A program made the translations under genes and the position numbers. 7,812 bases of DNA from Deltaproteobacteria bacterium RBG_13_61_14 (lineage in GTDB: Bacteria > RBG-13-61-14): the NCBI GenBank assembly GCA_001797815.1, contig MGQK01000066.1:31693-39504 (forward strand), read 5' to 3'. The notes under the pieces are model-generated. The model searched no databases. It saw nothing but the letters and a program-made list of their open reading frames with translations, and was not told the DNA's origin. How positions within the stretch are numbered: the first letter of the stretch is position 1; the number at the start of each line of letters is the position of its first letter. Positions 1,772-4,094 of this stretch are shown here, in pieces.

Positions 1772-1775
<4 letters not shown>
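1182..1775 (+). CDS. engB: Ribosome biogenesis GTP-binding protein EngB (YihA/YsxC)
   Basis: A 197-residue TRAFAC-class GTPase needed for assembly of the large ribosomal subunit in bacteria where it has been studied. All G motifs are visible: G1 GRSNVGKSS (30-38), the G2 region with TSSTPGRT (52-59), G3 DLPGYGYA (75-82), G4 TKADK (142-146) and the G5 SA at 174-175. The length matches the family (about 195-210). No Shine-Dalgarno sequence precedes the ATG (AAAAATCTGCC), but the N-terminus MKITSAEFV...[11 protein letters not shown] aligns well with Firmicute-type family members, so this start is supported by homology. The start sits just below the hairpin at 1142-1165. The stop TAA (1773-1775) overlaps the stop of convergent sucD. 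Codons between about 1425 and 1515 are AT-richer (TCT AAA, AAA AAA, GTA TTG) than the rest of the gene, although the protein stays typical. Confidence 0.95.
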
Positions 1776-2641
<866 letters not shown>

Positions 2642-2648
2642 CTTGACC

Positions 2649-3377
2649 TCAGCTTTCCTTGAATTCATCCAGGTATTCTTGCTGGGTGATTAATCCCTTG
2701 CGGACCAGCAGTTTCAAAAGCGCTTTCAGCTCGCGGGTCAGTTGCGGCGTGCCATCGCCCCGCTCGTGTTCCACCTGCAGGCGGGGCGCGGGGGCGGCCG
2801 GGGCCTTCTCTTTCTCCGGGGCCATCGGGCCCCGCACCTCTCCGTGGATGATCTCCATTTCCTGGCTCACCTGCTCCGGGGCTCCGGAGGAGAGGTCCAC
2901 ATCCGGCTTGTAGCGGTAGGTCCCTTTGCCGTCCTGCTCATACCAGAACTCCCGGATCACGACCCGGATCGTGCTCTCCAGGCCCAACAGCGGCTCCACC
3001 TTGAAGCCGGTAAGAAACCGGATCTCGTCCTGCGCCTCGACGTTGGTGGGATCGGCCATGGCCAGCATGAGCACGTTTCCGCTCGGCGTCCGCCGGGTGG
3101 CGACGGGAAAGACCACGTGTTTTTCCGCCAGCTCGCGGGGCACCAGCCGGCAGATGGCCTCGGGAATCGAGCTCTGGCCGAAATCTACGGCCGGGATCCT
3201 AAGCTGCGTCGAAAGCGCCTTGAAATAAATTTTTTCCGTGATGAAGCGGCGCTCGAGCAGGATGGTCCCCAGCCGGCCGCCGTAGCGGCGCTGGTCTTCC
3301 AAAGCCGCGTTGAGTTGCTCCTTGCTGAGCACGCCGGCCTTGAGCAGGATCTCGCCGAGTTTGAGCCGTCCGGCCAT
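2649..3377 (-). CDS. Stand-alone MshEN (GspE/PilB N-terminal) domain protein, candidate c-di-GMP receptor
   Basis: A 242-residue soluble protein. Residues 1-150 match the N-terminal domain of type II secretion and type IV pilus ATPases (GspE/PilB/MshE), but no Walker A/B ATPase follows. Two MshEN-like helix motifs are visible: [19 protein letters not shown] followed by NAALEDQ (4-29), and [11 protein letters not shown]...KALSTQ (35-58). In MshE-type proteins this pair binds cyclic di-GMP; the second copy here has Ile instead of Leu at one position, a mild change. Residues 80-135 hold the family's [15 protein letters not shown] and [20 protein letters not shown] stretches. A low-complexity Ala/Pro/Glu linker (about 160-205) leads to a short helical tail, [20 protein letters not shown]. 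The ATG follows the upstream stop directly (TAAATG, with GCGGGG just before). c-di-GMP binding and any partner are inferred. Confidence 0.82.
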
Positions 3378-4094
3378 TTACCCCGCCGATGCTAAAGCAA
3401 GAGTTCCCATGCGATATTGTTGGTAATGCTTATTACAATATCCTTTGCTGCGGCGCCGGCCTTGACAGCCCGGCACCTGGCACCCTTTTCCCGAAGCCGA
3501 GAAGGTCTCGGAGCCCAGCGCCTGGGAAGAAAAGTTCACCGAGGGCGACCGAGAAGCACCGGGCGCGGCGGAGGGATTCGGAGGCGAACCCGGATCCGCC
3601 GCGCCAGAGCTCGGGTCCGGCGGGCCGGAGCCCGGCCTGCCCTGGGCGGGACCAGAACCTTGATTCTTGAGCACCCGCTGCACTTCCTGCCCGGCCCGGC
3701 GCTGGCGCCGCTGGAGGAAAAAGTAATACGCCATCCAGACCAGGCCGACCACCACGAGCAGCTTGAACAGGAAGACCACTTTCGCCCACAGCCAGGTCCA
3801 GAAGCCTCTGGACTTGGGCTGCTCTTGCAGTAAGCCCACCGTGGACTTCAGCCGCGCCACCCGCTCGCCCTGCGCGGTCAACTCCACGCTCATCCGGTCC
3901 AGTTCCGTCTGCAGTTGGGCCACCGAGGCTTTCAGGCTGGCGTTCTCTTCTTCCAGCGCCGTCACCTGCTCCTGCAAGAGGCGGACCTGTTCCTGCACCT
4001 GCCGGGCCTGTTTTTCCTCTTCTGAAGGACCGCAGCCCCCGCTGAGGAGGCTCAGGATCACCACCAGCGGTCCGATCCATCGTCTGGGCGACAT
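3378..4094 (-). CDS. Lipobox coiled-coil membrane protein with cytoplasmic CX4CX9CX2H zinc-type motif
   Basis: A 238-residue protein not recognised as a named family. Parts in order: signal segment with lipobox LSGGC (Cys21); long heptad-rich coiled coil with LLQEQVTALEEENASLK (about 24-92); hydrophobic helix WLWAKVVFLFKLLVVVGLVW and beyond (about 100-127) followed by QRRQRR; Gly/Pro/Ser-rich linker (about 145-200); and a C-terminal motif with Cys205, Cys210, Cys220 and His223 within GYCNKHYQQYRMG. Basic residues just after the helix predict a cytoplasmic C-terminus. If Cys21 is lipidated, the coiled coil would be a periplasmic segment anchored at both ends in the inner membrane. The C-terminal cluster resembles small zinc-binding motifs with the form C-x4-C...GxCxxHY seen in phage and bacterial proteins. 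The start has AAAGGA eight nt upstream. First gene of the operon with the MshEN protein and sucD. Function unknown. Confidence 0.8.
   Translation of the reverse strand: MSPRRWIGPLVVILSLLSGGCGPSEEEKQARQVQEQVRLLQEQVTALEEENASLKASVAQLQTELDRMSVELTAQGERVARLKSTVGLLQEQPKSRGFWTWLWAKVVFLFKLLVVVGLVWMAYYFFLQRRQRRAGQEVQRVLKNQGSGPAQGRPGSGPPDPSSGAADPGSPPNPSAAPGASRSPSVNFSSQALGSETFSASGKGCQVPGCQGRRRSKGYCNKHYQQYRMGTLALASAG

Follow-up and report, generated by a model that had tools for sequence, protein, structure and literature searches.

The window analyzed here is a 7,812-nucleotide stretch of a contig from Deltaproteobacteria bacterium RBG_13_61_14. On its minus strand lies a gene for a 238-residue protein (the target) in which a lipobox-type signal is followed by a coiled coil, a transmembrane helix, a linker and a zinc-type module. 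The gene, its parts and two neighboring genes are listed below, with the basis of each assignment in parentheses.

3378..4094, minus strand: 238-residue gene with lipobox signal, coiled coil, transmembrane helix, linker and zinc module (open reading frame, codon statistics, AlphaFold2)
4035..4094, minus strand: signal peptide, residues 1-20, MSPRRWIGPLVVILSLLSGG (sequence)
4032-4034, minus strand: C21, putative lipidated cysteine, with Gly as the +2 residue (sequence)
3825..4022, minus strand: long helix or coiled coil, residues 25-90, probably periplasmic (AlphaFold2; coiled-coil type Pfam and PHROG matches)
3714..3803, minus strand: transmembrane helix, residues 98-127, then RRQRR (positive inside) (hydropathy, AlphaFold2)
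3486..3659, minus strand: Pro/Gly/Ser-rich, low-confidence (disordered) linker, residues 146-203 (AlphaFold2)
3426..3482, minus strand: C-x4-C-x9-C-x2-H module, residues 205-223, with a helix from 217 (alignment, profiles, AlphaFold2)
2649..3377, minus strand: MshEN gene with a 24+5+24 c-di-GMP motif and a SHOCT-like C-terminus (NCBIfam domain above cut-off, motif)
1772..2668, minus strand: sucD-type succinate-CoA ligase alpha gene, probably in the same operon (open reading frame, domain matches)

Positions 3378-4094 of the minus strand are a continuous coding gene. It starts at an ATG with the purine-rich AGAAAGGAAACACCCC immediately 5' of it, and its TAA stop codon abuts the ATG of the downstream MshEN gene. 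Using codon statistics trained on the other genes within the window, the whole gene scored +0.08 bits/codon in its own frame versus -0.2 to -1.3 in the other five, and alternative frames on either strand were thereby ruled out. Scored by part, the own frame was strong over the coiled coil (+0.57 bits/codon) and the transmembrane part (+0.63), and slightly negative (about -0.4 to -0.5) over the signal, the linker and the zinc tail, where the frames were poorly separated. GC content by codon position was 0.66/0.51/0.76. An Rfam scan gave no match, and a promoter search found no promoter-like site. In the translation, C21, C205, C210, C220 and H223 were all found where an earlier note on this DNA had placed them. 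Pfam and NCBIfam matches to the whole protein (SARAF, HAP1_N, PspA, SMC and others) were far under the cut-offs and were discarded as coiled-coil or low-complexity matches.

The c-di-GMP-binding MshEN layout consists of two 24-residue motifs separated by a 5-residue spacer (PMC5013675). The product of the downstream gene has this 53-residue motif, with the second 24-residue motif off consensus at two positions, and is a stand-alone, c-di-GMP-receptor-like MshEN protein with no ATPase domain. Its orthologue in a genome of the same order (G001; 54% identity) is preceded by a gene that looks aroB-like instead of by the target, so the partnership of target and MshEN gene is not conserved. The sucD-type gene had no adjacent sucC within the window. 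The rest of the window was housekeeping in character (a Nuo/Mrp-type subunit, an FHA protein, an EngB-like GTPase, an acyl-CoA dehydrogenase and Oxidored_FMN), and a putative cold-shock-type protein was also present.

Signal, coiled coil and membrane helix

Residues 1-20 comprise a positive n-region and a short hydrophobic core, with SGG before C21. The strict lipobox consensus is [LVI][ASTVI][GAS]C (PMC6139136), from which SGGC departs at -3 and -2, fitting the permissive pattern only. The lipobox is weaker than the earlier note had claimed. Other lipoprotein-like signals in the source genome carry WGGC, AGAC or TGAC. The genome encodes two Lgt, one LspA and LolA, so that lipoproteins are made in this organism, with a Lol carrier of the diderm type, and lipidation is possible. 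With strict filters, about 440 kb sampled from this genome yielded at least 11 lipoprotein-like signals, and among these 11 the target alone had a later strong hydrophobic helix. The residue after C21 is Gly, which in E. coli does not serve as the signal for retention in the inner membrane. We consider that C21 is probably lipidated.

Alternatively, the protein may not be lipidated, its N-terminus being an uncleaved signal anchor or an ordinary processed signal, in which case it would be a plain inner-membrane protein with one or two helices and the same cytoplasmic zinc tail. The two departures of SGGC from the strict lipobox speak for such a protein, as does the lack of homologues in which C21 could be seen to persist. 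However, C21 is the only cysteine ahead of the zinc module, the n-, h- and c-regions and the CGPSEEE that begins at the cysteine are lipoprotein-like, the h-region is short (about 12 residues) and would make a poor anchor, and the WGGC and AGAC lipoboxes come from the same genome. We regard a non-lipidated protein as unlikely.

The AlphaFold2 prediction, made from the single sequence without an alignment, gave a 66-residue helix at 25-90 (pLDDT mostly 90 to 97), which would be ~99 Å long if straight, and a second helix at 94-145, followed by the low-confidence linker and a helix at 217-235 that begins inside the metal cluster. The Kyte-Doolittle maximum of the protein was 2.23, at residues 104-122. 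The transmembrane helix predicted earlier at 100-127 was found at about 98-127 by both hydropathy and AlphaFold2, and the proposed topology of an N-terminal signal, a periplasmic helix, one transmembrane helix with positive residues on its C-terminal side, and a cytoplasmic tail was supported. A cytoplasmic location of the zinc tail is suggested by the positive-inside pattern as well as by the biology of the module. A match of the N-terminal half to PHROG 937 ("hemolysin"; 1.2e-5) covered only the coiled coil and the start of the transmembrane helix and was taken as compositional.

The zinc module and its other carriers

Against a profile of 45 other modules, built without the target, the target module scored 41.6 bits (E 2.6e-11), whereas the best of 2000 shuffles reached 4.6 bits. 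Chance does not account for the zinc-type motif, and the earlier note had recognized a real one. The ligand pattern C, C, C, H was invariant across an 11-row module alignment (A1), and the target keeps the G-Y before the third cysteine and the Y after the histidine, its G-Y/KHYQQ core and all four ligands being intact. Judged from the sequence, the four ligands very likely bind metal. An AlphaFold2 model of five rows showed, at moderate confidence, short strands and a helix just past the third cysteine. A Foldseek search with the module model returned no fold match, and none of the PDB sequence matches to the module (A20 zinc finger, LIM) was significant. Neither Pfam nor NCBIfam had a model for the module above cut-off, the nearest Pfam entries, Zf_WRKY19 and DUF5763, falling below theirs.

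All 11 aligned modules matched PHROG 5351 (HNH endonuclease), the target at 5.7e-6 and over profile positions 5-34 of 171 only; the module forms the N-terminus of these phage enzymes. Gene 7 of Microbacterium phage Magritte, with HNH_3 downstream of the module, is an annotated example. In one sampled phylum, that of genome G030 and presumably Myxococcota, 112 of the 146 genomes searched carried the module, each with as many as 8 matches. There it either comes after a short N-terminal helical part and linkers rich in RGRP/KPGR, or is paired in proteins of ~100 residues; these carriers (L065-L093, L133-L152), in which the module makes up the core, are small and soluble and often have AT-hook-like linkers and Lys-rich tails. 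They apparently form a conserved but unnamed family whose members may be nucleoid proteins. When 73 distinct carriers were compared, the target was the sole membrane protein, the other 72 having neither a lipobox nor a credible transmembrane helix. One candidate for a further membrane carrier, L150, was rejected: its hydrophobic stretch precedes the module by ~570 residues and lies within a long GC-rich open frame of non-coding appearance.

The source genome also encodes a protein that combines a pair of zinc modules with two HTH_3 matches (L064:772-1620, minus strand) and, just downstream, a second two-module protein (L064:105-629). An Uhrbacteria protein (L033:7917-8498) has four tandem modules with near-identical GRPDNWTPPP spacers, and its gene is upstream of genes resembling those for ribosomal L10 and L7/L12.

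With nucleases, HTH_3 proteins and RGRP/AT-hook-like and Lys-rich proteins among the carriers, the relatives suggest a cytoplasmic location and a link with nucleic acid. The earlier view that the motif is of a cytoplasmic type fits these relatives, which are soluble proteins or phage nucleases. For the target module itself, binding of nucleic acid is a tentative suggestion, to which we give slightly less than an even chance. We know of no functional work on this module.

Orthologues and comparison with known systems

No whole-protein relatives were found in 60 related genomes or in plasmids, nor in viral contigs scanned with the single protein, and a scan of GTDB contigs likewise found none, turning up only the four-module Uhrbacteria protein. 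For the N-terminal 145 residues there was no orthologue either; only coiled-coil proteins matched, the best being small lipoproteins with no transmembrane helix. The target gene was absent from both same-order genomes. Within the scope searched, the target appears to be an orphan of one genome.

Its presence in a single genome would fit a recent chance fusion of a zinc-module gene with the gene for a small coiled-coil protein, either a lipoprotein or a membrane protein, the tail having no selected role. The poorer codon fit of the linker and tail relative to the rest of the gene is in line with such an origin, as is the mobility of the module carriers in architecture. Nevertheless, none of the four ligands has been lost, the G-Y/KHYQQ core is preserved, the frame is open across the whole gene, and the gene is coupled to the one downstream. 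We hold a fusion of this kind to be quite unlikely.

The earlier note knew of no described family with this build, a statement that is only partly right: a lipid together with a membrane helix is known in SctJ/MxiJ/YscJ, in unimolecular spanins (u-spanins) and in CyoA. In MxiJ, C18 is lipidated and a transmembrane helix lies toward the C-terminus (PMC7058355), and the SctJ family typically has a lipidated cysteine and a transmembrane helix, EscJ being an exception (PMC5073101). Transmembrane helices also occur in the lipoprotein CyoA (PMC7139219). The SctJ proteins (YscJ/PrgK/MxiJ), inner-ring lipoproteins of type III secretion, combine an N-terminal lipidated cysteine with a C-terminal inner-membrane helix, as the target probably does, but they have periplasmic ring-building motifs, whereas the periplasmic part of the target is modeled as a single helix. 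The u-spanins (T1 gp11) likewise unite a lipobox, a periplasmic domain and a C-terminal transmembrane domain in one small protein, the lipobox of the target being permissive only; they differ in belonging to a phage lysis cassette, in having no cytoplasmic zinc module and, in the best-studied family, in a mostly beta periplasmic domain. We did not file the target under SctJ or the u-spanins because ring-building domains were not found among the Pfam matches listed, nor a lysis-cassette context among the window genes scanned. CyoA, subunit II of quinol oxidase, differs in its two transmembrane helices, its other periplasmic domain and its role as an oxidase subunit. We know of no cytoplasmic zinc tail in SctJ, the u-spanins or CyoA. 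Small Lpp-like coiled-coil lipoproteins (e.g., L102 and L103) also have a lipobox followed by a coiled coil, but they end after it, and their likeness to the target is at the coiled-coil level only. With the PHROG 5351 endonucleases and the soluble carriers, the target has C-x4-C-x9-C-x2-H and a GYCxxHYQ core in common. Neither an HNH domain nor the SctJ family (PF01514) was among the best 25 of the 41 Pfam matches listed for the target.

An envelope-spanning tether of the u-spanin sort, with the lipid carried to the outer membrane after LspA and Lol and the helix left in the inner membrane, is improbable. In its favor, the parts come in the order seen in T1 gp11 (a lipoprotein signal, then a periplasmic domain and a C-terminal transmembrane domain), the lipobox cysteine is the only periplasmic one, as in all 58 surveyed u-spanins (PMC6139136), the +2 residue is Gly and the genome encodes LolA. 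Against it, the neighborhood is housekeeping and the window genes scanned included neither a holin nor an endolysin, u-spanins end after the transmembrane domain and are, in the family studied best, largely beta, spanin profiles matched as coiled coil only (E 0.009-0.07), and a helix of about 100 Å would be short for a typical periplasm. None of the parts of the target is without precedent; what is new is their combination, in a single genome, and its function is what we infer.

A possible inner-membrane tether

The observations concern architecture alone, namely a signal peptide followed by a long helix, a single membrane helix and a flexible tail that bears a metal module. We favor reading this as an inner-membrane tether with a cytoplasmic zinc tail, and give that reading an even chance. 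Sec export would begin at the N-terminal signal, and Lgt and LspA would lipidate and cleave the protein at C21, leaving a periplasmic coiled coil whose N-terminal end is fixed by lipid and whose C-terminal end is fixed by the membrane helix. Through this coiled coil the protein would form an oligomer, and the metal tail would hang in the cytoplasm from a 60-residue linker. The two least certain steps are that the zinc module may bind a nucleic acid or protein partner, holding it at the membrane, and that the translationally coupled MshEN protein may link the tether to the c-di-GMP level. Several points stand against a tether: there is no orthologue of the N-terminal part or of the whole, SGGC is non-canonical, the linker is not AT-hook rich, the pairing with the MshEN gene is not conserved, and neither a solved structure nor a matching fold turned up for the module. 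A lineage-specific transmembrane adaptor, in which a coiled coil anchored by lipid plus helix would fix DNA, RNA or nucleoprotein to the inner membrane and the coupled MshEN protein would exert c-di-GMP control, is a doubtful extension with a low probability.

The zinc module has no above-cut-off Pfam or NCBIfam model and yet is widespread in one bacterial phylum. If the topology of the target holds, a lipid-anchored periplasmic coiled coil would be joined in one protein to a cytoplasmic module of the nuclease/AT-hook type, which may provide a direct link from the envelope to the nucleoid or to a transcript.
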